From Sphingomonas anseongensis (GTDB taxonomy: Bacteria > Pseudomonadota > Alphaproteobacteria > Sphingomonadales > Sphingomonadaceae), in assembly GCF_023516495.1 (NCBI RefSeq), contig NZ_JAMGBC010000001.1:1240001-1304000 (forward strand): a stretch of 64,000 bases of DNA, read 5' to 3'. Under the pieces are notes generated by a model. The model ran no database searches. It saw nothing but the letters and a program-made list of their open reading frames with translations, and was not told the DNA's origin. Made by a program: the position numbers and the translations under genes. The stretch's first letter is position 1; every line of letters starts with the position of its first letter. Shown here one piece after another: positions 7,120 through 46,408 of the stretch.

Positions 7120-7250
7120 GCGAGCAGCCTGACACTCCGCCGGGCCAACTCTCGGCCAAGAAAGTCAACCGGATCGTTGGCTGGCTGGCAGGATGCGCAC
7201 CAATGTTGCTGCTAACCTTCGTTTCGGTCGTGTATTTGACGGTGAAGTAA
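7116..7250 (+). CDS. Small predicted membrane protein (44 aa) between infB and rbfA
   Basis: A 44-codon ORF starts at TTG 7116, overlapping the infB stop as TTGA, and ends two bases before rbfA. The predicted product has a polar N-terminus ([19 protein letters not shown]) and one hydrophobic helix (about residues 22-41, [20 protein letters not shown]), so it would be a single-pass membrane peptide. Support comes from the tight fit between two genes, the same overlap style used elsewhere in the window, and the clear hydrophobic segment. The nearest purine-rich site (GAGGAG) is rather far upstream, so initiation would rely on coupling to infB. I recognise no family. Confidence 0.5.
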
Positions 7251-8207: not shown

Positions 8208-9227
8208 ATGGCCATCGTCAGCAAACGCGCCAAGGCGGAAGGCATGCCGATCATCCACATCGGCTATCCCAAGACCGCGAGCACCTGGTTCCAGAAGGCT
8301 TTCTATCCGCACCTCAACTCGCCCCGATACATCGGCCGCGAAGCGATCAAGGCCGCACTCGCTGATTGGAACGCGCTCGATTTCGACCCGGAGAAATTCC
8401 GGAAGACGCTTGGCCTCGGCGAGCATGAGGCGGGCCTGATCAGTGAGGAGGGCCTGTGCGGCTACCTTCACAACGGCGGCGTGGGCGGGATGGTCTCCAA
8501 GGTGCTCGCCGAGCAATTGAAACAAGCATATCCGGACGCCCGCATCGTCATCTTCATCAGGTCGCAGCCGAGCATCCTCGTGGCCGCTTACGCGCAGTAC
8601 GTCCGCTCCGGCGGGACGCGTAGCGCGCGCCGCTATTTCTTCCCCAAGGATTATCTGATCGGGCCCAACGCCTCGACCTACAAGCAGCCGCGGTTCGATA
8701 TTGCCTTCTTCCGCTACTCGCGATTGATCGAGCTGTACGAAGGCCTGTTCGGGGCCGGAAACGTGCACATATTTCTCTACGAACAGTTCGCGACCGGCGG
8801 CGTCGACTTCCTCCGCGATTATTCGAAACGGCTGGCTCTCGACGTCGACTGGGACAAGGTTTCGGTAGAGCGGAAGCACGCGAGCTATTCGCACTCGCTG
8901 ATGCAGGTTGCGCGCGCGACTAACCTGCTCACCGCCCGGTCGGTCCAGGACAAGACGTCCGTGGTTCACGTGCCCGGCTGGTACGACGCCCGGCGGCAGC
9001 TTCTTGAAAGCGCCAACCGCACCGGCCTCTTCGGCCGTTCACCGGCGCTCGACCAGCTGGTCGGCAAGCCGACCGCCGACTGGCTCCGCGACTATTATGT
9101 CGAGGACAACAAGCGGCTCATGCAGACTCACAAGCTACCGCTAGCCGACTTCGAATATCCGATAGAGGCCGTGCAAGCGCCCGACCGGCCGACGCCGGGC
9201 CGCTGGCGCTCGGTTCTTCGGTTCTAG
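8208..9227 (+). CDS. Sulfotransferase family protein
   Basis: Predicted PAPS-dependent sulfotransferase (339 aa). The 5'-phosphosulfate loop is visible as HIGYPKTASTWFQ near the N-terminus and the 3'-phosphate region as RIVIFIRSQPSILVAAYAQY around residues 110-130. I prefer ATG 8208, preceded by GCGGGGA; a TTG at 8181 and an ATG at 8244 are alternatives. The acceptor is unknown; such enzymes in this lineage often act on glycans or lipids. The stop shares a CTAG palindrome with the opposed methyltransferase/P-loop gene, and the two may be functionally linked because both are foreign to the surrounding ribosome-biogenesis operon. Confidence 0.82.
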   Translation: MAIVSKRAKAEGMPIIHIGYPKTASTWFQKAFYPHLNSPRYIGREAIKAALADWNALDFDPEKFRKTLGLGEHEAGLISEEGLCGYLHNGGVGGMVSKVLAEQLKQAYPDARIVIFIRSQPSILVAAYAQYVRSGGTRSARRYFFPKDYLIGPNASTYKQPRFDIAFFRYSRLIELYEGLFGAGNVHIFLYEQFATGGVDFLRDYSKRLALDVDWDKVSVERKHASYSHSLMQVARATNLLTARSVQDKTSVVHVPGWYDARRQLLESANRTGLFGRSPALDQLVGKPTADWLRDYYVEDNKRLMQTHKLPLADFEYPIEAVQAPDRPTPGRWRSVLRF

Positions 9228-10447
9228 CTTTCCAGCAGCTTCGACAGCGTTTCGGGCTTGATCGTCGGGTAGCCCTCTTGCGCCCGAACGAGGAACGACT
9301 TGCCGCCGAACGGCGCGGTCGCCTTCGCCCAGGCGTCGTACCAGGCCTTTAGGAAGGCCGGGTTGCCATATTGCTTCTTAAGCAGTGCGTGGCGTTTGCG
9401 GCCCTTGCGGCCCGACGCACGGGCGGATTCGCTACCGATCCGCTGCTGGAGCGCCTTTCCCTCGGCCGCCAGCGTGATGAAGGTGATCCGCTCCGCCGAC
9501 TGCAGAATGTGGAAGGCCGGATCGCGACCGTGCGACTGCAACGGGCGGTCGAAGGGCCGGAGCATGTCGTAATGGAAGACGAGCGTGTCGTGCCGCCCAG
9601 GCTCGAGATCGTCGAGACGATTGGCGCTGACGCTCGTGAAGTTGTCGGCGATGCCAAATTTCTTGCGCAGCTTCGGGTCGTCCAGTGCCCGGATGAAGGA
9701 GGACTTGCCGACCGCGGTCGGACCGCAGACTACGACCAGATGGCCGATGTCGCGCCTCCGCGCCTCGACGATCCAGCGGCCCTTGAAGCTCGAATGGTGG
9801 AAGATGACCTGCTCGTAGGCCTTGCTGTGGCCGTTGACGATCGTAGCGATCGCCTTCTTCGAGAAAGTGAAGGTGCGGTCGGCGGCTCGGGTGCTGTTGG
9901 CTGTCGGCCCCAGGAGGATGACCGGTAGGCCGGATGCCCCGAACAGCGCGAGCGGATTGCCCATCTTCACGACGTCGCGGACGCTGACGGGCGCGACCTC
10001 CAGGTAGAAGCGCTTGGCCGTGATCCGCATGATCTTCCGAAGCGCCGCGACCGGGTCGTACAAATGGTGCAGCACGTTGAGGCAGAGCACGACGTCGAAG
10101 CTTTTGTCGGCGCTGTCCCAATATTCGAAGTCTGCCGGGATATATTGGGCCCGCGGATCGACGATGTCGGCAATTTCGCGCGCATGGCGTGCGCGTTCGG
10201 GTGACGTTTCCAGCCCGGTCGCGGCCGACGCACCGTGCTTCAGTGCCTCGAGGCAGAAATGGCCGAGCGCCGAGCCGATATCGAGCAGCCGAAGCCCCTT
10301 GAGATCGCTCGCGAACAATATGTCGTCCATCGACGTGCGCGTATGGCCGCCAGTGGTTTCTCCGCCGCCGAGGTTGATGTTCTGGTAGCGGATGTGCTCC
10401 GAGCCCAGCAGCTTCGCGACGCGCTCGTCGCGCTGGCTTTCATCCAT
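9224..10447 (-). CDS. Fusion of CmoB-like SAM methyltransferase and P-loop NTPase domain
   Basis: Two-domain protein of 407 aa. The N-terminal half is a class I methyltransferase: YQNINLGGGETTGGHTR and LLDIGSALGHFCLEALKHGA (motif I) resemble the CmoB-like group, followed by VVLCLNVLHHLYDP. The C-terminal third starts with a Walker A loop, VVVCGPTAVGKSSF (about residue 240), like nucleoside kinases or zeta-toxin-type kinases. The predicted chemistry is methylation coupled with phosphotransfer or NTP use; substrate unknown. It runs opposite to all neighbours between the sulfotransferase (4-bp shared stop) and truB. I do not recognise this exact fusion. Confidence 0.75.
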   Translation of the reverse strand: MDESQRDERVAKLLGSEHIRYQNINLGGGETTGGHTRTSMDDILFASDLKGLRLLDIGSALGHFCLEALKHGASAATGLETSPERARHAREIADIVDPRAQYIPADFEYWDSADKSFDVVLCLNVLHHLYDPVAALRKIMRITAKRFYLEVAPVSVRDVVKMGNPLALFGASGLPVILLGPTANSTRAADRTFTFSKKAIATIVNGHSKAYEQVIFHHSSFKGRWIVEARRRDIGHLVVVCGPTAVGKSSFIRALDDPKLRKKFGIADNFTSVSANRLDDLEPGRHDTLVFHYDMLRPFDRPLQSHGRDPAFHILQSAERITFITLAAEGKALQQRIGSESARASGRKGRKRHALLKKQYGNPAFLKAWYDAWAKATAPFGGKSFLVRAQEGYPTIKPETLSKLLES

Positions 10448-11429: not shown

Positions 11430-11699
11430 ATGTCGATTACAGCCGAGCGCAAGGAAACGCTGATCAAGGAACATGGCCGTGGCAAGGGCGACACCGGTTC
11501 GCCGGAAGTCCAGGTCGCGATCCTGACCGAGCGGATTCAGAACCTGACCCAGCATTTCAAGACGCACGCCAAGGACAACCATTCCCGCCGCGGGCTTCTG
11601 ATGCTGGTGAACCAGCGCCGCTCGCTGCTCGACTATCTTCGTCACAACGACGAGCAACGCTACACCGACATCATCGCGAAGCTGGGTCTTCGCAAGTAA
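11430..11699 (+). CDS. rpsO: 30S ribosomal protein S15
   Basis: S15 (89 aa) binds the central domain of 16S rRNA early in 30S assembly. The sequence is canonical: [20 protein letters not shown], then [16 protein letters not shown], and [23 protein letters not shown] 11430 gives the exact family length; an in-frame GTG at 11418 would add four residues. The gene lies between truB and pnp, the classic order, and is followed by an attenuator-like hairpin. Confidence 0.97.
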
Positions 11700-11706
11700 C
11701 TGAGGA

Positions 11707-11729
11707 AACGGCTCCCAAACGGAGCCGTT
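11707..11729 (+). terminator. Hairpin after rpsO (attenuator or partial terminator)
   Basis: AACGGCTCC and GGAGCCGTT form a perfect 9-bp stem with a 5-base loop, followed by the mixed CTTCATATT rather than a pure T-run. It probably gives partial termination or mRNA 3'-end protection between rpsO and pnp. Confidence 0.6.
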
Positions 11730-11770
11730 CTTCATATTGGCCAACCGCAATTCGGCGGACTGGCCTTTGA

Positions 11771-11849
11771 GGGGCAATTCAAGAGGCCCCGAACCGACCG
11801 CAGGCCGGATTGCCTGCGACAGCTGTCCCGCCGGCATCCGGCTGGCGGG
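11771..11849 (+). promoter_or_regulatory. Structured pnp leader with three hairpins
   Basis: Three inverted repeats lie in the 5' leader of pnp: GGGGC/GCCCC (11771-11775 with 11786-11790), CGCAGGC/GCCTGCG (11799-11805 with 11812-11818) and CCCGCC/GGCGGG (11827-11832 with 11844-11849). The last ends 14 bases before the start codon. In E. coli a comparable rpsO-pnp leader is cut by RNase III and then used for PNPase autoregulation; the same role here is inferred. Confidence 0.5.
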
Positions 11850-11863
11850 GTGAAGGAAAAGAT

Positions 11864-14260
11864 ATGTTCGACATCAAGACAGTGGAAATCGAGCTGGGGG
11901 ACAAGACCCTCAAGCTCGAAACGGGCCGTGTTGCCCGCCAGGCCGACGGCGCGGTTCTCGCGACCCTCGGCGAAACGGTGGTCCTGTGCGCAGTCACCGC
12001 CGCAAAGAACGTGAAGCCGGGGCAGGACTTCTTCCCGCTCACCGTTCACTACCAGGAAAAATTCTCGGCTGCCGGCCGTATCCCCGGCGGCTTCTTCAAG
12101 CGCGAGCGTGGAGCGACCGAGAAGGAAACGCTCACCAGCCGCCTCATCGACCGGCCGATCCGCCCGCTGTTCCCGGAAGGGTTCTACAACGAGGTCCTCG
12201 TGATCGCCCAGGTTCTTTCCTACGACGGAGAGAACGAGCCCGACATCGTCGCGATGATCGCCGCTTCGGCTGCGCTGACCATCTCCGGCGTGCCCTTCAT
12301 GGGCCCGATCGGCGCTGCCCGCGTCGGCTTCAAGGATGGCGAGTACATCCTGAACCCGTCGCCTGAGCAGACGAAGGAAAGCGCGCTCGAACTGGTGATG
12401 GCCGGAACGCCCAATGCGGTGATGATGGTCGAGTCCGAGGCCAAGGAGCTGACCGAAGAGCAGATGCTCGGTGCGGTCATGTTCGGCCACAAGGCCAGCC
12501 AGAAGGTTTGCGAGGCGATCATCAGCCTCGCCGAGAAGGCGGCCAAGGACCCGTGGGACCTGGAGTCCACCTCGGACCAGAAGGCCGGCATCAAGAAGAA
12601 GCTGAAGGACATCGTCGGCAAGGACATCGAGGCCGCCTACAAGCTGACCAACAAGTCGGAGCGTTCGGCCGCCCTCAACGCGGCCCGCGACAAGGCAAAG
12701 GAAGCTTTCGCCGAGGCCGACCCGCAGGAGCAGCTGGTCGCCGGCAAGGCGGTCAAGAGCCTGGAAGCGGACATCGTTCGCGGCGCAATCCTGAAGGAAG
12801 GCCGCCGGATCGACGGACGCGACACCAAGACGGTCCGTCCGATCGAGTCGATGGTCGGATTCCTTCCGCGCACCCACGGCTCGGCGATCTTCACCCGTGG
12901 GGAGACCCAGGCGATCGTCACCGTCACTCTCGGAACCAAGGAGTCCGAGCAGATGATCGACGGTCTTGAGGGCCTCTCCTACCAGGCCTTCATGCTGCAC
13001 TATAACTTCCCGCCCTATTCGGTCGGCGAAGTGGGCCGCTTCGGCGCTCCGTCGAGGCGCGAGACCGGCCACGGCAAGCTTGCCTGGCGCGCTCTCCACC
13101 CGATGCTGCCGAGTGCGGAGGAGTTCCCCTATACGATCCGCGTCCTGTCCGACATCACCGAGTCCAACGGCTCCTCGTCGATGGCCACGGTGTGCGGCGG
13201 AAGCCTGGCTCTGATGGATGCCGGCGTTCCGCTGAAGGCGCCGGTCGCGGGTATCGCGATGGGCCTCATCCTCGAAGGCAAGGACTATGCTGTGATCAGC
13301 GACATCCTTGGCGACGAGGACCACCTCGGCGACATGGACTTCAAGGTTGCGGGCACCGCGACCGGGGTCACATCGCTGCAGATGGACATCAAGGTCGCCG
13401 GGATCACCGAGGAGATCATGAAGACCGCCCTCGCCCAGGCGAAGGACGGCCGTGCGCATATCCTCGGCGAGATGGCCAAGGCCCTCGGGTCCGTTCGTGG
13501 CGAGCTTTCGGCTCACGCGCCGCGCATCGAAACGATGCAGATCCCGAAGGACAAGATCCGCGAAGTGATCGGGACCGGCGGAAAGGTGATCCGCGAGATC
13601 GTCGCCGAGACCGGAGCCAAGGTCGACATTGACGACGACGGAGTGATCAAGATCAGCTCGTCCGACCTGTCGCAGATCGAGGCTGCCCGCCAGTGGATCC
13701 ACGGCATCGTCGCCGAGCCGGAGCCGGGCACCATCTACACCGGCAAGGTCGCCAATATCGTCGATTTCGGCGCGTTCGTGACCTTCATGCCCGGGAAGGA
13801 CGGCCTGGTTCACGTGTCGGAGATCAGGAACGAGCGGGTCGAGAACGTCCGCGACGTGCTGAGCGAAGGCCAGGAAGTGAAGGTCAAGCTGCTCGAGGTC
13901 GACCAGCGCGGCAAGGTCCGCCTGTCGATGCGTCTCGTCGACCAGGAAACCGGCGAAGAGCTTCCCGACACGCGTCCCCCTCGCGAGCCTCGCGAGGGTG
14001 GCGACCGTGACCGCGGACCTCGCGGCGACCGCGGAGATCGCGGCCGTGGCGGCCGTGACCGTGGTCCGAGGCGCGACGGCGGCGGCGATCGCGGTGGCCG
14101 TGGCGGCGACCGGGATCGCGGACCGCGCGGCGAAGGCGGCGGCGACCGTGGCGGTCGTCCCCCGCGCCGCGAGCGTGAGGGTGGCGAGCGCCAGGGCGGT
14201 GACGAGGGCGAAGCGCCCAAGTTCGCTCCGGCGTTCCTGACCGGCGACGACTCGGATTAA
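11864..14260 (+). CDS. pnp: Polyribonucleotide nucleotidyltransferase (PNPase)
   Basis: PNPase degrades RNA 3'-to-5' by phosphorolysis as a trimer and joins the RNA degradosome. Two RNase PH-like cores, the second containing [19 protein letters not shown], are followed by a KH domain ([16 protein letters not shown], about residue 565) and an S1 domain ([18 protein letters not shown]). The last ~95 residues are an unusual Arg/Gly/Asp-rich tail with repeated GDRG, RGG and RDRGPR units, ending [15 protein letters not shown] 11864 is preceded by GAAGGAAAA; the longer frame from 11810 overlaps the leader hairpins. Length is 798 aa. A strong terminator follows. Confidence 0.97.
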
Positions 14261-32254: not shown

Positions 32255-32341
32255 GCCCAGGTGGCGGAATTGGTAGACGCACCAGCTTCAGGTGCTGGCG
32301 CTCGCAAGGGCGTGGAGGTTCGAGTCCTCTCCTGGGCACCA
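32255..32341 (+). tRNA. tRNA-Leu (anticodon CAG)
   Basis: Type II tRNA with a long variable arm: acceptor GCCCAGG/CCTGGGC, D-arm GCGGAATTGGTAGACGC, anticodon stem-loop with TTCAGGT (anticodon CAG), variable arm GGCGCTCGCAAGGGCGT, and T-arm GAGGTTCGAGTCCTC. CCA is encoded; 87 nt. Its 3' end is the attachment site of the genomic island that follows, and the tRNA is intact. Confidence 0.95.
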
Positions 32342-32343: not shown

Positions 32344-32456
32344 CCCCCCATTCGCCAATGTCCACCAACGGTTGCAAAACCGTTGGAAATCAGCCAAAAA
32401 CGACCGGCGAACTGTCCGGTGGTGACCGCCGTTGATCGTGTGCAATCACACGAAAG

Positions 32457-32528
32457 TGGGGGCCTAATTTGGGGCTTTTTCGCAAAAGGCCCCCATTTCG
32501 GGAGCCAGATCGAGAAAAAAGGCCCCCA
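32457..32528. repeat. Cluster of GGGGGCC/GGCCCCC motifs at left island end
   Basis: TGGGGGCC at 32457-32464 and two inverted copies GGCCCCCA at 32488-32495 and 32521-32528 lie between attL and the integrase start. A further TTGGGGGCCTA occurs inside the integrase gene near 32683. The first copy is part of a 28-base block matched at the right end (46311-46338). Candidate arm-type integrase sites or an autoregulatory operator. Confidence 0.5.
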
Positions 32529-32529
32529 A

Positions 32530-33756
32530 ATGCCGCTGAACGACACTGTCATCAAAGCTGCTAAGGCACGACAAAAGAACTGGAAATTGGCCGATGAGAA
32601 GGGGCTGTATCTTCTGATCACTCCAGCCGGTGGAAAGCTCTGGAAAGTTAAGTTCCGCCACCATGGCAAGGAGAAGAAGCTCTCTTTGGGGGCCTATCCC
32701 GATGTCAGCTTGGCTAAGGCACGGAAGCTCCGAGACGCTGCCCGAGAGCAGTTGGCGGAAGGACTAGATCCGGCGCTTGATCGGAAGAAGGCCAAGTTCG
32801 CGGCAAAGCTCAGCGCAGGGGTTACGTTCTCAAGCGTCGCTAAAGAATACATCGATTCGAAGATGGCCGGAGACTGCAGGGCCGAGGCGACGATCTCCAA
32901 GGCTCGCTGGTTCCTGGAACAGCTGGAGCCAGCAATCGGGAATATGCCTCTGGCGGATGTGGACCCACAGATGCTGCTTGCTGCCCTGAAGCGGCTCGAG
33001 GCCAAGGGCCGGCACGAGACCGCCAAGAAATGCCGATCGTTCGCCAGTCGAGTGTTTCGCTATGGCGTCGCAACAGGCCGTTGCAAATCAGACCCCGCTC
33101 AGTTGCTGCAGGGCGCTCTGATCACGCCAAAGGCGCGGCACTATGCGGCAATCCTCGAGCCGAGGAAGCTGGGTCAGCTGCTCCGTGCCATTGATGCATT
33201 CTCAGGCTCGCCGGTCACGATGGCGGCGTTGCGGATCGCCCCACATGTCTTCGTTCGACCTGGCGAACTTCGGCACGCCGAGTGGAGCGAGTTCGACCTC
33301 AAACAAGGAATCTGGAACATTCCGGCGGGGAAGATGAAGGCCAGGCGTCCACATGCGGTGCCTCTTTCGAACCAGGTCCGGAACATGCTGAAGGAGCTTC
33401 GAGCTCTCACCGGCCGAGGCAAGTACGTCTTCCCGTCAGCCCACGGGACCAGCCGGCCAATGAGCGAGAACACCCTCAACGCCTCGTTCCGCAGAATGGG
33501 ATTCGAGAAGGATGAGGTTACCGCTCACGGCCTGAGGTCCACCGCATCAACTCTGTTGAACGAGAGTGGCATGTGGAGCCCGGATGCGATCGAGCGAGCC
33601 TTAGCTCATGGCGAAAGCAACGCCACCCGAGGGGCGTACCATCGGGGACTTCACTGGGATGAGCGGGTGAAAATGGCCCAGTGGTGGAGCGATCATCTCG
33701 ATGAGCTCCGCAGGGGCGGTGAGGAAGCACGGCTCACTGTGACAAGCGGAGGTTAG
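32530..33756 (+). CDS. Tyrosine-type site-specific integrase (P4-like)
   Basis: Integrase of 408 aa. The N-terminal DUF4102 arm-binding domain begins MPLNDTVIKAAKARQKN and has DEKGLYLLITPAGGKLW; SAM-like core-binding and catalytic domains follow. Catalytic residues visible are Arg in VRPGELRHAEW (about 248), His-x-x-Arg in TAHGLRSTAS (about 333-336), His in RALAHGES and Tyr in RGAYHRGLHW (about 369). It catalyses insertion and excision at tRNA-Leu. ATG 32530 gives the standard N-terminus; the frame open from 32383 adds non-family sequence. Confidence 0.93.
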   Translation: MPLNDTVIKAAKARQKNWKLADEKGLYLLITPAGGKLWKVKFRHHGKEKKLSLGAYPDVSLAKARKLRDAAREQLAEGLDPALDRKKAKFAAKLSAGVTFSSVAKEYIDSKMAGDCRAEATISKARWFLEQLEPAIGNMPLADVDPQMLLAALKRLEAKGRHETAKKCRSFASRVFRYGVATGRCKSDPAQLLQGALITPKARHYAAILEPRKLGQLLRAIDAFSGSPVTMAALRIAPHVFVRPGELRHAEWSEFDLKQGIWNIPAGKMKARRPHAVPLSNQVRNMLKELRALTGRGKYVFPSAHGTSRPMSENTLNASFRRMGFEKDEVTAHGLRSTASTLLNESGMWSPDAIERALAHGESNATRGAYHRGLHWDERVKMAQWWSDHLDELRRGGEEARLTVTSGG

Positions 33757-36634: not shown

Positions 36635-37228
36635 TCAGGCCGCCGTTCTTTCAGTGGTCAGATGTCGAAAAATCCTGATGCAGGCTCTGACATCTGCTTC
36701 CGCATCGTGAGCGTCGCTGTGCTCTTCGCCAAAGAAGTGCCTCATACACTCAGAGAGGCTTGGTGATTTCGGGTGAAATCTACCGGCAGCCATCATTCGA
36801 AAGGTCGGTGGTAAGTTCACCAACGCGGTAGATTGAGCCATGGTACAAAAGGTGTTGGGCGGTGCGGACCATCCGGTTTCTCCGAGCCTAGCTGCAACAA
36901 TAGCCATGATCCGCAGGTCGAAGTCGACGTTGTGGCCCACAATGCACGTCGATCGCTTCGAAGCGGAATTGAACCAGCGGAATACCGCGGAGACTTCAAC
37001 TCCGCGGTGGAAGGCTTCCTCCAAAGATATGCCGTGTGCTGCGAAGGCATGAGTTGATAGCAGAGCATCACGTCCTGGCCGGACCATCGTGAAGAGTCGG
37101 TCGAGTTCTGTCCCATTTTCGTCGAACAGAATCCCAGCAAACTGGAGCAGGTGTGGCTGAGCTCGATGGTCAGGTTCGAGATGCGGACGTGGGAGGTCGG
37201 TCGTCTCTGTGTCATATGCGAGATACAT
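36635..37228 (-). CDS. DnaQ-like 3'-5' exonuclease (DEDDh)
   Basis: Exonuclease of 197 aa with DEDDh motifs: ExoI YLAYDTETTDLP (Asp6 and Glu8), ExoII IVGHNVDFDLRIM, and ExoIII DAHDAEADVRAC with the general-base His. This is the epsilon/RNase T superfamily; substrate (DNA or RNA) unclear. AGGAAAGGAA precedes the ATG. It faces the HGG-motif gene convergently and is divergent from the six-gene operon across an 855-bp gap. Confidence 0.88.
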   Translation of the reverse strand: MYLAYDTETTDLPRPHLEPDHRAQPHLLQFAGILFDENGTELDRLFTMVRPGRDALLSTHAFAAHGISLEEAFHRGVEVSAVFRWFNSASKRSTCIVGHNVDFDLRIMAIVAARLGETGWSAPPNTFCTMAQSTALVNLPPTFRMMAAGRFHPKSPSLSECMRHFFGEEHSDAHDAEADVRACIRIFRHLTTERTAA

Positions 37229-37472: not shown

Positions 37473-37542
37473 ACACAGTGGAAGCGGACCTAGCTAGAGC
37501 AGATTAGACAAAGGTCCATATTCAACTCTTTCCCCACTCCTC

Positions 37543-37650
37543 CTTTGGTTCCTTGGCCACTTGCAGCGAAGGCTTACCCGGCTCGGCGCGCAGCTCCGCG
37601 AGCACCGGCCGGGTCAAAGCCGAGAGTGGAGAGTGGGCAAGGAACCAAAG
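37543..37650. repeat. Long imperfect hairpin (candidate structured RNA or DNA element)
   Basis: Outer arms CTTTGGTTCCTTGGCCACT (37543-37561) and AGTGGGCAAGGAACCAAAG (37632-37650) pair over 19 bp with one mismatch. Inside, GGCTT/AAGCC and ACCCGGC/GCCGGGT (37571-37582 with 37608-37621) continue the stem, and CTCG/CGAG can close the apex. No ORF explains the symmetry. Confidence 0.55.
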
Positions 37651-37755
37651 GGAAAGAAAAGCTAACTTTCTGCTTTCGCCAACTCTCGGTGAGACTCTGC
37701 GGACTCAATTCATCTTCTCCCTGGTTCAGGCGTGAGGTTTCTTATCTTTGGTCAA

Positions 37756-38083: not shown

Positions 38084-39964
38084 GTGGCCTCGCAAGACGT
38101 CGATGTGAATCAGTTTTACCATGTGCTGAATTCGGCACCGAAAGAGCACCAACGCAGAGTTGTAGTGAGCGACGATGCTGGCAAGTCGTCCACGCTGCAC
38201 GTCCACCGTTTCGCGCAGGTCGGCAAGGGGGACCGGCTTCGGCTCGACCCGGCTTCCACGAGGAATGTCTTCGTTGTGTCTGCCGAAGATCAATCGGATC
38301 TAATTCGGCTCACACCGGCTTTTGAGCAAAGTGGCGAGATCTGCGTCGGGTCTCAGCGGATAGCATACCGGATAGCTGAGGTTGCCTCGGCGTCCGATCT
38401 TCAATCGCTTCAGTACCTTGAGCAGTTCCACTACAAGACGGCCATCCTTTCAGACGAGGGCACTGACGAGGCACCTACCGCAACAGCGTCTGTTGGAGGT
38501 CGAAAGGCGATCCTGCTCTTGCAGTTCAAGGTAGGAATCAGCTGGCACGCCGCCGCATATGTCGACATCCAAATGCCACTGCTGATGGTGAAGCCGCGGC
38601 ATGAGCTATTCGCGAACGCGTTTCGGCATCCGGATAGGCCCGTTCGCTGGGAGCAATGGGACCAGCACGCCATGCGCGAAAACGTGAACCTCATTGCTCG
38701 CATAGCTCGCGTGGTCGTGAGCCCGGAGTATCGCGGTCTCGGGCTAGCTCGAACTATGCTGGAGGCGGCGAAGACATTCTGCAAGACTAGATGGCATATC
38801 GCTGGCCGTCGGCCCTTGTTCTTGGAGATTATGGCCGAAATGCTCCACTACATAGACTTCGTGTCTACGAGTGGTTTCGTCCGGGTCGGCAATACTGAGG
38901 GAAATGTTGCCAGAGTATCCAGAGACCTCCTTTCAATGAAGAAAGGATACGGCATCAGCTCTGGAATTATGAGCTTGCAAAAGAAATACCTAACTCAACT
39001 TCAAGATTTCTGTAAGACTACGAACAGGGATTTCGAAGAAGTAGTGGCACGACTGGAAGAGGTCCTCCAGACAGAGGACCCCTCTTCTCACCTTTCGCCC
39101 GAGGAATGGCTCGCCTTCAGAAAGGTCATACGCTTCCCCATTCCATATTATTTGTGCCCGCTAGACGATTATGCAGAGCAGTATCTCCGTGAGCACGCTC
39201 CCGCGTCACCCAAGTTGAGGCGCAACAGGTTCAAGATCAACTCCCAGGCGATTGCGGTAACAGGAATTCGCGTCACATCAGATCTCCAGATTTCTCAATC
39301 GAAACCCGTTCGCCTCATCATGGACTGCTTCGGTCTTTCCGCCGACCGCATCCAGCAGCGCATTATCGGGCCGTTGGACGTCAAAGCGTCTGCGGGAAAC
39401 ATCATATTTATTTCTGGTTCGAGCGGCAGCGGCAAGAGTCTACTCCTCCGGGCTCTTGATCACGAGGGGAGCTACCGATCAAATCATCTGAAATTCCAGC
39501 GAAGCGTGTCGCGGACATACTCTGCTGGATGGCTGAAATGCCTTCCTTCGGAAGTTTGCATTTTCGAGTATTTCGCGGAGAAGTATTCGGTCTCTAGGTC
39601 CCTTAGCGCCTTGAGCCAGGTCGGCCTCTCCGAGGCTACGGCCTTTATTCGCCCTTTCGACATGTTGAGCAAAGGGCAGCAGTATAGGGCTATGCTCGCC
39701 GATCTCCTGTTACGCGACGATGAGGTTTGGCTTCTAGACGAATTTTGCGCCGATCTTGACCCACTCACCGCTCGCGTAGTCGCACACAATTTCCGGCGTC
39801 ACGTGATGGCAGCTGGAAGAATTGCGATAGTCGCAGCAGCAAACCACGGGCATTATCTTGACGCGCTTCGTCCCTCGAAGATCATTGCGCTGCGAGCCGG
39901 TGATGCTCCTCGCTTAGTAACATACAGGGAGTACCAGGATGAGTTTCTCGCTCAAGCTGGCTGA
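38084..39964 (+). CDS. GNAT-ABC ATPase fusion protein (operon gene 1)
   Basis: Protein of 626 aa. A middle GNAT acetyltransferase domain carries the acetyl-CoA motif RVVVSPEYRGLGLARTMLEA (about residues 209-228). The C-terminal ABC-type ATPase has Walker A ISGSSGSGKSLLL (about 443-455), signature LSKGQQYRAMLADLLL (about 528) and Walker B EVWLLDEFCADLD (about 546). Soluble: no membrane segments. The same composite is known as the COG2401 type (ABC ATPase fused to an acetyltransferase). The target of acylation is unknown; nucleic-acid modification (compare phage Mu Mom, also GNAT-fold) or a tRNA/protein substrate are possible. It starts with GTG after AAGG and overlaps gene 2 by 26 bases. Confidence 0.82.
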   Translation: MASQDVDVNQFYHVLNSAPKEHQRRVVVSDDAGKSSTLHVHRFAQVGKGDRLRLDPASTRNVFVVSAEDQSDLIRLTPAFEQSGEICVGSQRIAYRIAEVASASDLQSLQYLEQFHYKTAILSDEGTDEAPTATASVGGRKAILLLQFKVGISWHAAAYVDIQMPLLMVKPRHELFANAFRHPDRPVRWEQWDQHAMRENVNLIARIARVVVSPEYRGLGLARTMLEAAKTFCKTRWHIAGRRPLFLEIMAEMLHYIDFVSTSGFVRVGNTEGNVARVSRDLLSMKKGYGISSGIMSLQKKYLTQLQDFCKTTNRDFEEVVARLEEVLQTEDPSSHLSPEEWLAFRKVIRFPIPYYLCPLDDYAEQYLREHAPASPKLRRNRFKINSQAIAVTGIRVTSDLQISQSKPVRLIMDCFGLSADRIQQRIIGPLDVKASAGNIIFISGSSGSGKSLLLRALDHEGSYRSNHLKFQRSVSRTYSAGWLKCLPSEVCIFEYFAEKYSVSRSLSALSQVGLSEATAFIRPFDMLSKGQQYRAMLADLLLRDDEVWLLDEFCADLDPLTARVVAHNFRRHVMAAGRIAIVAAANHGHYLDALRPSKIIALRAGDAPRLVTYREYQDEFLAQAG

Positions 39965-41336
39965 CGCGTTCGGCAAGGTGGTTGAGCGGAGCCCGTTCAC
40001 TGCACTCGACCCTATAGTTAAGATCAACCACGTTCCGAAGGGCAACAATGTCATCTTTGGGCGCGCTAAGTATGAAGACCGCCCTTCGGATGTCGTCTAT
40101 ATTGGTAAGGTTCTCGAGAACGCGGCTGGCAAGAGCTACTTAGGCGCAGACGCGTGGATGGACGTCACCTTTCCACACGTGATTTACATTACCGGCACTC
40201 GAGGAAGTGGCAAGTCCTTCGACCTTGGAGTTCTGATCGAGGGGATCTCGGAGCTTCAGGAAAAAAGCCCCGTCCAGAACGACGTCACTCCGATCACCTC
40301 GATACTCATCGATACGCAAAGCCAGTTCTGGACATTGAGGTATGAGCCGCGAGGAGCGGTGAAAGAAAACGCCCAGCAGTTAGAAGAGCTCAAGCGCTGG
40401 AACATCAAGCCCAACGCCCTTAAGAATTGCCGAATCTATATCCCGCCGAACACCGAGCCTTTTCTCGGCGACGAGATCAAGTTCCGCTTACAGCCGAGGT
40501 ATGTGACAGCGGAGGATTGGTGCAGTCTCCTAGGCCAGGAGGTCTATGGGCCACAGGGACACATTGTCTCCGAGACATGTGAATCGCTCTCGCCGGCGAA
40601 CTACTCCTTGAATGACATGATCGCGTATATTTCGGATGCGTCGAACTGGCCGGGCATCGCAGAGTCATCACGAAACGCCCTGGTTTACAAACTAACAGAC
40701 TACCTAAGGACGGGGCTGTTTGATCCCGCTGGATTGGACGTAAGGTCACTACTTACGCCGGGGGTCGCCAACATCTTCATGCTCAGGGACCTGCGAAATG
40801 AGGACAAGTCGCTCGTCACGGCCATCATCGCTCGCCAACTGTTTCTCATCATGGGCCAGCATCATAAGGAGCTCAAAGTCGCTCACTTTTTTGACAAGCC
40901 TTTTAAGGGTGAGAACCTCCCAACGAGAGTTTGGCTGTTGATCGACGAAGCGCACGTTGTAGCTCCTGCAAATCTCCCATCACCGGCCAGAGAAGCGCTC
41001 GTAGAGTATGTAAAACGGGGGCGTGACGCAGGGCTTTCGCTGGTGCTCGCAACACAGCAGCCATCGGCCGTTGACGACAGAATACTGAGCCAAGTGAATA
41101 TCAGCTTCAATCATCGGCTGACCTTTCAAAGCGATATTAGTGCCGCAATCAATCGAGTGCCAACAAAGACGCTCGCCGGCATGAAGATGTCGGGAACCAC
41201 ACTAACCGATTTCGGAGATATGATTCGCCTGCTGGAGGCCGGGCAGTGCTTCCTTGGCGATCACGCAAGCAGTCGTACTGTTCTAGTTCAAATTCGACCG
41301 AGGGTGACGTCGCATGGTGGCTACAACCCAGTCTGA
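39939..41336 (+). CDS. HerA-type hexameric ATPase (operon gene 2)
   Basis: Protein of 465 aa in the HerA/FtsK/VirB4 superfamily. Walker A is YITGTRGSGKSFDLG (about residues 83-97), Walker B VWLLIDEAHVVAP (about 325-337), followed by VKRGRDAGLSLVLATQQPSAVDD, the sensor/arginine-finger region typical of DUF87/HerA translocases. HerA proteins translocate DNA and work with nucleases (NurA, Sir2, DUF4297 or PLD). GGGAG upstream supports the ATG. It overlaps gene 1 and gene 3. The likely role is DNA translocation for the PLD-like nuclease encoded by gene 4. Confidence 0.85.
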   Translation: MSFSLKLADAFGKVVERSPFTALDPIVKINHVPKGNNVIFGRAKYEDRPSDVVYIGKVLENAAGKSYLGADAWMDVTFPHVIYITGTRGSGKSFDLGVLIEGISELQEKSPVQNDVTPITSILIDTQSQFWTLRYEPRGAVKENAQQLEELKRWNIKPNALKNCRIYIPPNTEPFLGDEIKFRLQPRYVTAEDWCSLLGQEVYGPQGHIVSETCESLSPANYSLNDMIAYISDASNWPGIAESSRNALVYKLTDYLRTGLFDPAGLDVRSLLTPGVANIFMLRDLRNEDKSLVTAIIARQLFLIMGQHHKELKVAHFFDKPFKGENLPTRVWLLIDEAHVVAPANLPSPAREALVEYVKRGRDAGLSLVLATQQPSAVDDRILSQVNISFNHRLTFQSDISAAINRVPTKTLAGMKMSGTTLTDFGDMIRLLEAGQCFLGDHASSRTVLVQIRPRVTSHGGYNPV

Positions 41337-42519
41337 CCCATACAGCGCCCTAAGCCACAAGATCGGTTGGTCAGTCGGTTTGGAGTACACGTTTGATCGC
41401 GTGCGGCGCCTTGTCGAAATCTACGCCGAACAGGGGGATCTGACCTATGGTATGTGGTCAGAACTCGTTACGAAAGAGTGGGGGCTGAAGAACTTCCATA
41501 TAACTGATTTCTTTGGGTCCATTGACCTTATTTCCGCTAGCGGCCGCACGTTGTACGTCCAGCCTACACTTGATGTGCTCTCAATACTCTGGAGGGCGCT
41601 TCCTGCAGAGAAGCGAGACGACGCGCTTCGTTTGGTTCTCGCTGTTCGCTTTGTTCTCGACGACGGTGACATCTTCTTGAACTGCCTCGCATCGGAGTTT
41701 GATCCGGATGCTACGCGCTCGTCGCTTATCGCGATGGGAACATACAAGATCGCCGCGCTGAAAAGGGTGTTTCCCAGTTCGGCGGTCCAAGCGAAAATCT
41801 TCAAGCTCGTCAAAGTTGATACGCAGCCTACGAATAAGGGCAGCAAGGGGAAGGCCGGCGAAACGTTGGCATCGCGCAGACTTGAAGAGCTTTCGCACCG
41901 CACTGGCTCGCTGTCAGCTGTACCATCCGAAGAAATCACAGTTTCCGATGATTACCTCCGGAAGGTTCTCGGCCGAAGACGAGATTGGGCCACCTCGCTT
42001 GGTCTAGCGACAGACAAGGGCAAGCTTACCGGCAAAGGGAGACGTTTTCTTGACGTTCTCACGGATGCTGGTTTTTGTACATCAGGCGAGGCATTCGCTG
42101 TTTGGCCGCTCCATCACCAGTTTCGACGTCTCGCGATAAAGCCTGAACGCATCGACGCGCCAGATTTAAATATGTGGTCGTTCCTTGCGGTCGTTTACAG
42201 CGCGATGGGTGGCGCAGCTGACCCTCGGATAGACGAAGCAAGCCTGGAGCGAATCATCGAGTTCTTGGCTCGATGCTATCAAACCTACCGACTGACTAAC
42301 AAAGGTATGGCGGTACTGAAGAACGAGTTGCCAACCTATGTCGCGTACCTGACGTATTTGGCTCATTGCTATTCGAATAACGAAGGAGCACTTGACGTCC
42401 CTGCTCTTATAGAGACGGATAGAAATAGCCCTGAGCAACGGGTGCTACTTAGACTGTCGCAGTATAGCGACGGGTCGTTCACGATCAGGAAGAAAAATGC
42501 CTCTGTATTTCTGTCCTGA
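41314..42519 (+). CDS. Unrecognised protein with winged-helix-like segment (operon gene 3)
   Basis: Protein of 401 aa, unrecognised as a whole. Around residues 228-250 the pattern WATSLGLATDKGKLTGKGRRFLDVL fits the recognition helix and wing of a winged-helix DNA-binding domain; the N-terminal half (RRLVEIYAEQGDLTYGMWSE; ALPAEKRDDALRLVLAVRF) is helical. No catalytic motif is seen. GAGGG before ATG 41314 is a good ribosome-binding site. Overlaps of 23 bases with both neighbours suggest it is a subunit of the same complex, perhaps a DNA-recognition or adaptor protein. Confidence 0.75.
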   Translation: MVATTQSDPYSALSHKIGWSVGLEYTFDRVRRLVEIYAEQGDLTYGMWSELVTKEWGLKNFHITDFFGSIDLISASGRTLYVQPTLDVLSILWRALPAEKRDDALRLVLAVRFVLDDGDIFLNCLASEFDPDATRSSLIAMGTYKIAALKRVFPSSAVQAKIFKLVKVDTQPTNKGSKGKAGETLASRRLEELSHRTGSLSAVPSEEITVSDDYLRKVLGRRRDWATSLGLATDKGKLTGKGRRFLDVLTDAGFCTSGEAFAVWPLHHQFRRLAIKPERIDAPDLNMWSFLAVVYSAMGGAADPRIDEASLERIIEFLARCYQTYRLTNKGMAVLKNELPTYVAYLTYLAHCYSNNEGALDVPALIETDRNSPEQRVLLRLSQYSDGSFTIRKKNASVFLS

Positions 42520-43408
42520 GTTCGTTGCGGACTTGCAAAATCACGGCGATGCGAACTTTGCGAAGCGGGTACTGCAGAAAGTCGTGGATGGGTCTGAACT
42601 TCGCCCCGATAGCAAGGACCATCGCTATGAGGGATTCCCAGGAGCGTGGATTCGATATGTAAGTCGGGGCAACTCGGCGTATCGAGTAATCTATATACGG
42701 CGAGGCTCCGACGTTTTCCTCTATCGTGCAGGGGAACATTCCGTTGAGGACCGCCTTACGCAGCCAGGCGAGCTCGTCGGTTTGCCAGTTCAAGGTTACA
42801 CAGCGCCCACGGCAGCAACCACGTCGGAGCCAGATTACTGGCCAAATCAGCTTTGGGCTGCCGCGCCACGGCCGCAGCCGAGTGGATCACCGTTCCTGAA
42901 GAACTTCTCCGTTCGCTATTTGAAGACGGCTCTTCTCTCGCGCAGACTCGTCCCGCACAAGCGCGTAACGTTAATCAGCCCTTATCTCTCAGTTGAGCTA
43001 TTCGAAATGTCGAATATCTTCGGCAAGATGCTGTTCGATCTCATCGGGGATGGAGCAGAAGTCGCTCTGATAACAAAGCCCCCCAACCCCAAAGAGATCG
43101 GTGTTTTTGAACGACTCGAGCAGCGTAACGTGCAGCTTCATTTCCATGAAACGCTGCACGCGAAGATATTTTTATTCGAGATCGACCAGCGGCGGACAAG
43201 AGCACACGATGAACCTATTGCCATTGTCGGTTCGGCGAACCTCACACAGTCCGGATTGGCCTTTGCGGTCCGATCGAACGAGGAATTTTGCTACGAACTC
43301 CGCGGATCCGAGATAAGGGAGGTGAAGGAATTTGCCGCCTACCTCAAGCTGTCGTGCGTCGATCTCCAGTACATCAGATTAGCTAATGCCCGAAGGAGAG
43401 TTACATGA
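42497..43408 (+). CDS. RelE/ParE-like domain fused to PLD-family nuclease (operon gene 4)
   Basis: Protein of 303 aa. Residues ~1-95 resemble a RelE/ParE/HigB-type fold: an early helix FAKRVLQKVVDGSEL, then GFPGAWIRYVSRGNSAYRVIYIRRGSDVFLYRAGEHSVEDRL, matching the strand pattern and YRVIY...H of that family. From about residue 130 a phospholipase-D-like nuclease domain follows, with one HKD motif: HAKIFLFEID (His221, Lys223) and IVGSANLTQSG (about 243-253). A single HKD implies dimerisation for activity. AGGAAG precedes the ATG. It is probably the effector nuclease of the operon; the RelE-like part may be toxin or only a binding module. Confidence 0.75.
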   Translation: MPLYFCPEFVADLQNHGDANFAKRVLQKVVDGSELRPDSKDHRYEGFPGAWIRYVSRGNSAYRVIYIRRGSDVFLYRAGEHSVEDRLTQPGELVGLPVQGYTAPTAATTSEPDYWPNQLWAAAPRPQPSGSPFLKNFSVRYLKTALLSRRLVPHKRVTLISPYLSVELFEMSNIFGKMLFDLIGDGAEVALITKPPNPKEIGVFERLEQRNVQLHFHETLHAKIFLFEIDQRRTRAHDEPIAIVGSANLTQSGLAFAVRSNEEFCYELRGSEIREVKEFAAYLKLSCVDLQYIRLANARRRVT

Positions 43409-44580
43409 GTGGGATCATTGACCCGCAGCAGTTCTACAGTGCGTCGAATCTGACGGGCAATCCGTTCCGGTCGAACCCCACCCAGGAGAGCGATCCACGA
43501 ATGGATGTTTGGGTGGGGTACGAACGTCAGCAGAACCAGTTGGTGAAGTTCATCACTCGCAGTCGAGCTGACCAAGTCGGCAACGTCAATTTCATCATGC
43601 TCTACGGCGGTTATGGAACGGGTAAGTCGCACGCGTTGCTTTGGGCACAGCACCAGATTCTCGTGACCAAGGCTGAGGAGTTCAATTCGGTCGCGTACTT
43701 CGTCCCGTCCTTGCGCAAGGACAAAGGCAAACTCACATTCGCTGGTGCGTTCGTCGAAGACCTCGTTGCCAAGTCAAGCTTGGTGGCTGATGTCCAGGCG
43801 TATCGCACGTTTCTCGGAATGTGCATTTTCCGATACCGGGATCAGATGAAGATTCCAGAGAGCGTCAAAGCAGAAGAAGTCATCGAGAGAATTCTGCCCT
43901 CTGTCGAGCTCTACAACTTCGCTAAAGACATCTACAAAGCAGAGACGGAAGCAGAGGTTCGCTCGCTTCTGGTTCCCAAGGGGTTCAATGATTACCAGGC
44001 CGTCGTCACGTTCACGCGGCTCGTCAACCTGTTCGTCTTTGACGTGAACCTTCCAGAGGGCGGTCGGCGGTTCAAGCAAGCGGTGTATCTTCTCATAGAT
44101 GAGCTCGACGACCTACTGCGAACGCCGAACGTTAAAGAGGTGCGAGAGGTCAATGACGCACTCCGCCACATCTACGATTCTTGCCCGAACTCCTTTTGTC
44201 TCGTCATCGCGCTTTCAGCGGAGGCCGCGGAGCTCACGGCGGCGTTTGAAAAGTACATCCTAGATCGCATCCAGAAGCAGATCGTCTTCGAGCTCCTCGA
44301 CAAGGATGACGCGGTTCGCTTCGTGGCCGAAGTCCTGCAGGCGAACCGTGTGGATCCTGCCAGTTCAGACAAATTCTTCCCGTTTGATGAAGCCGCTATC
44401 GAGGCGATAATCTCTCAACTCGTCGAGATAACGCCTCGTAAGGTCGTCAACGTCATGCAGCAGGTGATCGAAGAAGCTCGCCTCGCGGGAGTCGACCCGC
44501 AAAAGGAGCGGATATCGATCGAGACCCTGGACGACCGAGAAATCATGGACGAGGTCTTTGGCGAAGGCGGATTGATGTAG
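43405..44580 (+). CDS. Orc1/Cdc6- or ExeA-like AAA+ ATPase (operon gene 5)
   Basis: Protein of 391 aa. The N-terminus (NLTGNPFRSNPTQES; VGYERQQNQLVKFI) followed by Walker A MLYGGYGTGKSHALLWAQ (about residues 64-81) and Walker B VYLLIDELDDLL (about 226-237) resembles Orc1/Cdc6- and ExeA-type AAA+ proteins. A sensor-like IALSAEA and a helical lid (PRKVVNVMQQVIEEAR) follow. AAGGAGAG precedes the ATG; it overlaps gene 4 by ATGA. It may load the HerA-like ring or sense foreign DNA or proteins. Confidence 0.8.
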   Translation: MSGIIDPQQFYSASNLTGNPFRSNPTQESDPRMDVWVGYERQQNQLVKFITRSRADQVGNVNFIMLYGGYGTGKSHALLWAQHQILVTKAEEFNSVAYFVPSLRKDKGKLTFAGAFVEDLVAKSSLVADVQAYRTFLGMCIFRYRDQMKIPESVKAEEVIERILPSVELYNFAKDIYKAETEAEVRSLLVPKGFNDYQAVVTFTRLVNLFVFDVNLPEGGRRFKQAVYLLIDELDDLLRTPNVKEVREVNDALRHIYDSCPNSFCLVIALSAEAAELTAAFEKYILDRIQKQIVFELLDKDDAVRFVAEVLQANRVDPASSDKFFPFDEAAIEAIISQLVEITPRKVVNVMQQVIEEARLAGVDPQKERISIETLDDREIMDEVFGEGGLM

Positions 44581-44616
44581 CCCGCCGTCCGGGCGGCATG
44601 TCTCCTGTACTGATTC

Positions 44617-46182
44617 ATGCTCGAGCAGAGCTCCTCAGCAATATTCGACCAGGGATGGGGCCTGAACGGCTTCATCGCCGTAGCGAACGCGGTCAACCTC
44701 GGTTGCATAGATGAACTCTGTTCCGCCGCTTGCGAAGCTGTAGCCGTTGCAGCTCAACACAGCCCGTCTGTCTGGCTGTCGTGCGCCACATCCCAACAAG
44801 ACGTCAGTCGCGAACTCGTAATTGAGCTGTTGGAAGAGGACGAAGCAGCACACATCCTAGCACAGGAGTATCTGGCTGGTGTCAGCGGAATCCTGGGCCA
44901 CAATTCAGCTCCTCTGACCCCATCATATTTCCTGGAAGTTCTGCGCGAATGGGCTGAAGGTGACATAGAGCTCACCGCAGCGTGGATTTCGATCTACCGA
45001 CACACTTGGCGTATCGAGCGCGACTACAGGCTGCTCGGACTGACATTGCTTGCGCCTTTCTGCTTGTTGCTTCTCGAGCCAGAGCTCGATTGGCGCAGTT
45101 TGGATCTGGTCTTTTTGGACATTGCGGATCAAGCCCGAGACGGCCCAGTCACGCTGGCTGGCATTGCTTCCGAATATGAAAATCTAGGTGTCATCGCGTC
45201 GCTTGATCTGCTGCACTTCGCGGCACTGAATCATCCCAAATTAATCACCGTACCTGCCGAAGATCTAATCGTAGATCAGCTTTACCGGGCCGTTCCGATT
45301 GCACATTTGGCGAAGCACATTCTGGCGAAGAGCAAATACGTCGTGTTTCCGCAGAACAGCTGGAGAAGCACGCGTGAAGTGCTGCAGCGGAAGTGCGAGA
45401 TCAACAGGGAAGGTTTGTATGGCTTCTTCGCTCACTGGGGAGCCGAACAACAGTTGGCATTGTGCATCCTCGAAGAGCTGGTTTCAAAGATTTGGTCGGA
45501 GAGCATTCACTGCTGCAATGAGGTCCAAGGACTCCCCGCACCCGTTGAGGCAGCTATCGTTGACTGCCTAAAGCGAGAGAGTCGCGTTCTCTCGCGGGGC
45601 GAACTGATGTCGTTATTGCACGCAGATCGCATTGATCTCGACCCTCTAGAACTGGGTCCTGGTCGCATACTCGCGTATGTTCCCGGTCCGCGGTTCGCTT
45701 CCTCTAAGACCTGCTTGTACGTTTTGAGCGAGTGGGTGCAGGACGCGCACCATTCCCGGAACCGGATCTCGGCCACTCGAGTAATTACCCCGCGTCGCCA
45801 TAAAGATGTCAGTTTCAGCGAAGCGGATTGCAAAGCTGCGCTCGCACGAGATCCGGTCTATTTAGCATTGGGCGCCACTTGCACCCGCCGCTTAGCTCGT
45901 TCCATTGCCATCAGGCTCCTGAACCAACCCACAGAGCCGTATTATCTAAATAAGATGGCGGGAACCGTTGAGCGTTTCCTCGCCTCGGAGATGGAGCCGC
46001 TGGGCGGAGGACTACTGGTAGACGAACGTTGGCACGAGATTCTGACTACTTTTGAGAAGCCGGCTCGTCAGCGCTCCCTCGTTATGAAGACTCTGCGGTC
46101 TATCGCATCACGGTACAACGACAGTGATCGCCAAGCGGCCGCAGCCACGCTCTTGAAGGACCTCAGCACGACTTTGCACTAG
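44617..46182 (+). CDS. Unrecognised 521-aa protein (operon gene 6)
   Basis: No family recognised. The sequence is soluble and mostly helical, rich in Leu/Ala, with segments such as YFLEVLREWAEGDIELTAAW, ALCILEELVSKIWSE and LNKMAGTVERFLASEMEPLG. No nuclease, kinase or P-loop motif is evident. A winged-helix-like ESRVLSRGELMSLLHADRID lies near residue 320. It starts 36 bases after gene 5, following a small CCGCC/GGCGG hairpin and without a strong ribosome-binding site, so its expression may differ from genes 1-5. Position argues that it belongs to the system. Confidence 0.7.
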   Translation: MLEQSSSAIFDQGWGLNGFIAVANAVNLGCIDELCSAACEAVAVAAQHSPSVWLSCATSQQDVSRELVIELLEEDEAAHILAQEYLAGVSGILGHNSAPLTPSYFLEVLREWAEGDIELTAAWISIYRHTWRIERDYRLLGLTLLAPFCLLLLEPELDWRSLDLVFLDIADQARDGPVTLAGIASEYENLGVIASLDLLHFAALNHPKLITVPAEDLIVDQLYRAVPIAHLAKHILAKSKYVVFPQNSWRSTREVLQRKCEINREGLYGFFAHWGAEQQLALCILEELVSKIWSESIHCCNEVQGLPAPVEAAIVDCLKRESRVLSRGELMSLLHADRIDLDPLELGPGRILAYVPGPRFASSKTCLYVLSEWVQDAHHSRNRISATRVITPRRHKDVSFSEADCKAALARDPVYLALGATCTRRLARSIAIRLLNQPTEPYYLNKMAGTVERFLASEMEPLGGGLLVDERWHEILTTFEKPARQRSLVMKTLRSIASRYNDSDRQAAAATLLKDLSTTLH

Positions 46183-46386: not shown

Positions 46387-46408
46387 CGAGTCCTCTCCTG
46401 GCACCATC
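46387..46408 (+). repeat. attR core (one base shorter than attL)
   Basis: 22-nt direct repeat of the tRNA-Leu 3' end: CGAGTCCTCTCCTGG then CACCATC, lacking one G of the GGG in attL. It marks the right boundary of the island; sequence to the right is again GC-rich chromosome. Confidence 0.8.

Follow-up and report, generated by a model that had tools for sequence, protein, structure and literature searches.

Predicted capture systems recurrently combine a HerA/FtsK-type motor, an ORC ATPase, fast-evolving winged helix-turn-helix (wHTH) proteins and nucleases (PMC10853773; PMC12839542). Pairs of an ABC ATPase and a GNAT have been predicted to modify DNA nucleobases with acyl groups (PMC7824862), and the self marks known from defence systems comprise, according to a review, methylation, phosphorothioation and deazaguanines (PMC12904381). 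Here we describe a cassette of five co-directional genes (genes 1–5, positions 38084–44580, forward strand) in a stretch of 64,000 nucleotides from Sphingomonas anseongensis (contig NZ_JAMGBC010000001.1, positions 1,240,001 to 1,304,000; hereafter the window), in which these two predictions, HerA/FtsK capture and ABC+GNAT modification, are united. Genes 2, 5, 3 and 4 provide the motor, Orc/Cdc6-type ATPase, wHTH protein and nuclease that make up the HerA/FtsK capture class, all in one operon, and gene 1 couples a GNAT to a phage-type ABC ATPase, as in the predicted ABC+GNAT modification systems. Judged by its gene content, the cassette appears to be a new, BREX-related variant within the predicted class of HerA/FtsK capture systems. 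Our tentative reading, which we rate somewhat below even, is that it is directed against invaders and performs modification-guided restriction with an acyl mark.

Five co-inherited genes

Scanning species genomes with gene 2 returned eight loci (L034–L041), in Acidithiobacillus, Pseudomonas, Luteimonas, Stappia (L037), Caulobacterales, another alphaproteobacterium, a Planctomycetota metagenome-assembled genome (MAG) and Rhodovulum (L041); a ninth (L042, genome G007) came from the same genus as the window. Wherever the contigs reach far enough, in eight loci besides the window (L034–L038 and L040–L042; the contig of L040 begins inside gene 1), genes 1–5 stand in identical order, and L039, whose contig stops after gene 2, has kept genes 1 and 2. 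The host range comprises Alpha- and Gammaproteobacteria, Acidithiobacillus and one Planctomycetota MAG. Among L035, L037 and L041, the matching DNA begins at base 7146, where gene 1 starts, and ends no more than a few bases past the stop of gene 5, and the flanks are unrelated. Across seven loci, the distance sets of the five proteins are correlated with one another at 0.96–0.99; nonsynonymous divergence (dN) is 0.04–0.28 across the cassette genes, with synonymous sites near or at saturation. Because the gene order recurs and the distances are so correlated, the genes co-occur more than by chance, and the conserved unit is five co-inherited genes that travel together between unrelated bacteria.

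A first-pass annotation of this DNA had proposed a defence system of six genes, to be checked by the co-occurrence of their homologues. Its six open reading frames were reproduced at exactly the same coordinates, with successive overlaps of 26, 23, 23 and 4 bases among genes 1–5 and a gap of 36 bases between genes 5 and 6, and the homologues of genes 1–5 do co-occur, in the same order. Gene 6 (44617–46182, forward strand, 521 amino acids) has to be excluded from the conserved set. Its only homologue lies in the same-genus locus (25–27% identity), none was found in 384 other genomes of the class, and domain and profile searches returned no family. Being absent from every locus outside the genus, it led us to reject a six-gene system; since it was found in one same-genus relative only, it is a lineage-specific accessory.

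The cassette was present in one of 60 sampled relatives, the same-genus genome, and a gene 5 homologue in one of 384 other genomes of the class, as a stand-alone distant copy. Gene 5 had no match in the other phylum genomes drawn, genes 1 and 2 had none in the remaining sampled genomes of the class and phylum draws, and no match to the cassette was found in E. coli. One relative of the class (L049) carries a lone gene 5 homologue (8807–10030, 35% identity) flanked by metabolic genes and was rejected as a further cassette. The rare, patchy spread of the cassette and its location on an island speak against a DNA-repair or chromosome-maintenance module of the HerA–NurA type. The archaeal HerA–NurA also pairs a HerA with a nuclease (PMC12977600), but no NurA or Mre11 partner was found in the cassette, and we consider a role in repair or maintenance highly improbable.

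Domain content and possible working of the cassette

Gene 2 (39939–41336, on the forward strand like all genes of the cassette; 465 amino acids) matches HerA/DUF87 (2.5e-7) and, as its best PADLOC model, mad8 (1e-16), and its Walker motifs are invariant across homologues. The closest plasmid homologue belongs to a Haloplanus locus (L031) with a tRNA-guanine transglycosylase (TGT), a BREX-type ATPase, a PglZ-like protein, a GNAT and QueF, which we take to be BRC-type because its content fits the published description of BRC (PMC12839542). Gene 2 aligns to the HerA of this locus over its full length (hhalign 99.9%, 358 columns, 28% identity) and is, by these matches, a HerA/FtsK-type DNA translocase ATPase of the BRC/Mad8 subfamily. 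Gene 5 (43405–44580, 391 amino acids) has conserved Walker motifs and weak AAA-type matches (TniB 0.0024, BrxC 0.004). Over its full length it aligns (hhalign 98.3%) with a protein from haloarchaea, itself a match to BrxD at 4e-12, and it is a BrxD/Orc1-Cdc6-type AAA+ ATPase, a probable loader or switch. The combination of a HerA with an Orc-like ATPase seen in the first-pass annotation is supported by the DUF87, mad8 and BRC matches of the one and the BrxD-related match of the other. The haloarchaeal gene-5-like protein adjoins TGT genes, and preQ0 synthesis genes are present in one of the two plasmids. On these plasmids (L052, 3424–10119; L053, 3863–9990) the TGT, a protein of ~300 amino acids and the gene-5-like BREX ATPase are tightly ordered in Dpd-like sets.

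Gene 3 (41314–42519, 401 amino acids) encodes a multi-wHTH protein without a sequence match in Pfam or PDB, and all sequence relatives found for it belong to the cassette; Pfam DUF4007 did not match, nor did Foldseek on its own return a match. When its AlphaFold2 model (predicted template modelling score 0.82) was compared by VIA-align with the Foldseek top 1000 chains, BrxA (7zge) ranked first, with a Z score of 7.5, a size often reached by unrelated models (168/199 residues, root-mean-square deviation 3.7), and SspB second (Z 5.6). We regard a BrxA/SspB-like fold as credible because both top ranks are families expected in such systems; model and ranks also support the wHTH-type DNA-binding protein assumed earlier. 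Of the five proteins this one has the lowest identity to the window copy (29–33%) and mostly the highest dN. This would suit a protein that reads sequence or senses invaders, the role that we consider probable for it.

The PLD domain of gene 4 (42497–43408, 303 amino acids; domain at residues ~135–300) was recognized by PLDc_2 (2.4e-7), by Foldseek (NgoAVII R protein, 6.7e-6) and by VIA-align (SauUSI, Z 15.8; NucT, Z 14.9), and structure comparison likened it to BfiI as well. Its active site is intact in the window (H221, K223, S246, N248), where gene 4 is probably a nuclease, as predicted from the domain. Among nine homologues the site is intact in five and lost in four (L035, L036, L038 and L040), in which His is replaced by Asn or Gln and, jointly, Asn by Asp or Glu, on separate branches. 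Gene 4 thus seems to be kept for another role too: the cutting assigned to it in the first-pass annotation agrees with the intact site in the window, but cannot be its sole function. The N-terminal domain (residues ~1–95) has a predicted β-α-α-β-β-β order as in RelE. Profile searches of it against PDB and Pfam were empty, and the RelE identity that had been read from this order of strands and helices is unproven and was dropped.

Gene 1 (38084–39964, 626 amino acids) joins an N-terminal GNAT half (Pfam Acetyltransf_1, 4.5e-5) to a C-terminal ABC ATPase (ABC_tran, 1.2e-13), in which Walker A, signature and Walker B are kept in all nine homologues. Its GNAT family profile matches the GNAT protein of SSU5-type phages and ABC-GNAT fusions of viral contigs, and gene 1 and the phage GNATs have HY, PRH and RxxG motifs and a conserved glutamate region in common. 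In SSU5-type phages the GNAT gene has genes for an ABC ATPase and ParB proteins as neighbours, directly before the terminase; the viral-contig relatives are ABC-GNAT proteins, three of the four beside terminase or terminase-like genes. The GNAT is also related to that of the Haloplanus locus (at 91.7%). By analogy with the phage pair, gene 1 is a predicted ATP-dependent acyltransferase with DNA bases as a possible substrate, and this kinship lends plausibility to the self-marking once suggested for it. Adjoining ABC+GNAT and terminase genes were seen in three viral contigs (L043, L045, L046), a Klebsiella phage (L054) and a Pectobacterium plasmid (L055); this arrangement, extended by two ParB genes in SSU5-type phages, is a coherent candidate for a DNA-modification cassette that would act close to packaging. 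On another viral contig (L044, 6637–10569) an ABC-GNAT-like stretch lies in frame within an open reading frame of 1310 amino acids, as a fusion, insertion or intein.

GNATs modify many substrates, and the cassette might defend its host without marking DNA at all. A HerA/Orc/BrxA-like complex would then sense invader DNA or packaging, and the GNAT, with a protein such as the gene 4 product or a host factor as its substrate, would serve as a switch or second effector. HerA–DUF4297 is not known to need DNA modification. It is described as a two-component HerA defence complex (PMC12198126, PMC11291478), and a GNAT fused to DndF has been interpreted as a protein-targeting co-effector (PMC10853773). 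Moreover, the RxxG loop of the GNAT is altered in L036 and L038, which retain the ABC site, so acylation may be dispensable at times. The closest kin of the GNAT are, however, the phage ABC+GNAT proteins beside ParB and terminase genes, a setting like that of DNA modification, and we regard defence without marking as possible though doubtful.

Under the preferred reading of modification-guided restriction, we infer a working with DNA as the GNAT substrate in which the fast-evolving, BrxA/SspB-like protein of gene 3 would read DNA, possibly at a specific site, and gene 1, using acyl-CoA and ATP, would acylate a DNA base as the self mark. On unmarked incoming DNA, the BrxD/Orc-like AAA+ ATPase of gene 5 would load or license the HerA-type motor of gene 2, which would pump this DNA for cutting by the PLD domain of gene 4; the N-terminal domain of the latter might contribute a second, RelE-like activity. 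That all of this holds together as restriction-modification via ATP-dependent acylation of DNA bases, enforced by the HerA/Orc pump and the PLD protein and with a mark enzyme shared with phages, is rather unlikely in our estimate. Phages may use the marking enzyme as their own protection.

In eight readable loci, GNAT loop and PLD site are both intact in five, the GNAT stands with a dead PLD in one, neither is intact in two and none combines an intact PLD with an altered GNAT loop. This asymmetry speaks for modification-guided restriction, in which the mark set by the GNAT would shield DNA from the PLD. The loci are too few and too closely related to prove it, as they share ancestry and would reach p ~0.1 at best, by our estimate, even if they were independent. 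Other observations weigh against this reading. The PLD His and Asn were lost at least two or three independent times, so that some lineages can do without the nuclease. To this add the commonplace size of the BrxA score of gene 3. No PADLOC system model fits, and a PADLOC scan of the flanks revealed no clear grouping of further known defence genes.

Island and other genomic settings

In the window the cassette is the cargo of a 14.07-kb island that starts in a tRNA-Leu gene (CAG; 32255–32341, forward strand, ARAGORN). An exact 15-bp repeat, CGAGTCCTCTCCTGG, lies on the forward strand within the 3' end of this integration target (left attachment site, 32321–32335) and again at 46387–46401, ~205 bp past gene 6, where the island ends and the G+C content steps from 0.56 to 0.64; it is ~55% within the island versus ~65% outside. 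The island has its own tyrosine integrase (32383–33756, forward strand; Pfam Phage_integrase 1.6e-22, Phage_int_M 1.7e-26), and the tRNA-integrated island proposed in the first-pass annotation is confirmed by all four features. The interval between integrase and cassette encodes a DUF3631 protein, a small HGGxSTG protein and, on the reverse strand opposite to the cassette, a DEDDh exonuclease (36635–37228; PADLOC DEDDh 1.6e-20). Upstream of the cassette there is a 20-nt inverted repeat (95%) with a 70-nt spacer (37542–37651).

Three other loci have comparable neighbours, namely L038 (tRNA-Arg and integrase), L042 (integrase) and L041 (Prim-Pol and tRNA-Thr). Integrase, Prim-Pol or tRNA genes near these four loci and the weak TniB match of gene 5 would suit a function for the mobile element itself, in which HerA, a TniB-like AAA+ and the PLD protein form a DNA-handling machine for transfer, integration targeting or island partition. 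We hold this to be improbable, as the cassette resides in unrelated elements and chromosomal settings. The pairwise DNA comparison showed no common ends or flanks, which also led us to reject a transposon. Furthermore, a plasmid search found no cassette match save distant haloarchaeal homologues of gene 2, and there were no matches of gene 2 in phage records or of genes 2, 3 and 5 in 2.9 million viral contigs. In L042, genes 2 and 3 (11460–12856 and 12774–14035) are each split by a frameshift, through decay or sequencing error.

Relation to described systems

No exact match to a named system was found in PADLOC 2023, NCBIfam or the literature searched, of which coverage was partial. The first-pass annotation had rightly placed the locus as an undescribed, defence-like set; it did not name the nearest relatives, BRC and MADS, with which the HerA subfamily is in common. 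Its statement that the locus does not match BREX holds, as the six proteins had no matches to the BREX core (BrxC, PglZ, BrxX methyltransferase) beyond the weak BrxC match of gene 5.

With BREX-Related Capture (BRC; Rakesh and Krishnan 2026, PMC12839542), in which a HerA/FtsK translocase is universal, the cassette shares the HerA subfamily, an ORC/Cdc6-type ATPase and a sparse yet wide distribution. Gene 3 is a candidate counterpart of the tripartite DUF4007/BrxA-type DNA-binding protein of BRC, and the GNAT half of gene 1 a candidate counterpart of the GNAT that, like TGT, belongs to a subset of BRC loci. The cassette differs in having a PLD protein and an ABC-fused GNAT, in its BrxD-like ORC protein of 391 amino acids, and in being without PglZ (no match in the six proteins nor in 44 scanned flanking proteins of relatives), the large, BrxC-like DUF6079 protein (no alignment beyond the P-loop between gene 5 and the 1363-aa BrxC-like protein of the Haloplanus locus), STAND NTPase (none found in the cassette) and TGT (no match in the six proteins). 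MADS (Mad1–8) is approached by gene 2, whose nearest PADLOC model is Mad8, and by gene 1, whose ABC domain weakly matches mad3 (2.5e-9, in part) and which also weakly matches mad8, but no methyltransferase or other Mad component was found in the cassette. Membership in BRC and in MADS was rejected, as their defining genes are missing. HerA/FtsK capture systems with DndFGH (PMC10853773) have the same HerA/FtsK motor, Orc/Cdc6 ATPase, fast-evolving wHTH protein (DndG/SspB-like) and a nuclease; in the cassette the nuclease is a PLD protein instead of a restriction endonuclease, no inactive restriction endonuclease insertion was seen and the GNAT-ABC protein is added. The phage pair of ABC ATPase and GNAT (MK0520-like; SSU5-type phages) has GNAT and ABC domains homologous to those of gene 1, but in ABC-GNAT order or as separate genes, beside ParB and terminase and without a HerA or PLD partner. 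Compact and with exact edges, the five-gene cassette occurs in several cultured hosts and combines an enzyme predicted to acylate DNA with a capture machine of the HerA type, and an acyl self mark, if true, would be a new kind beside methylation, phosphorothioation and deazaguanines.

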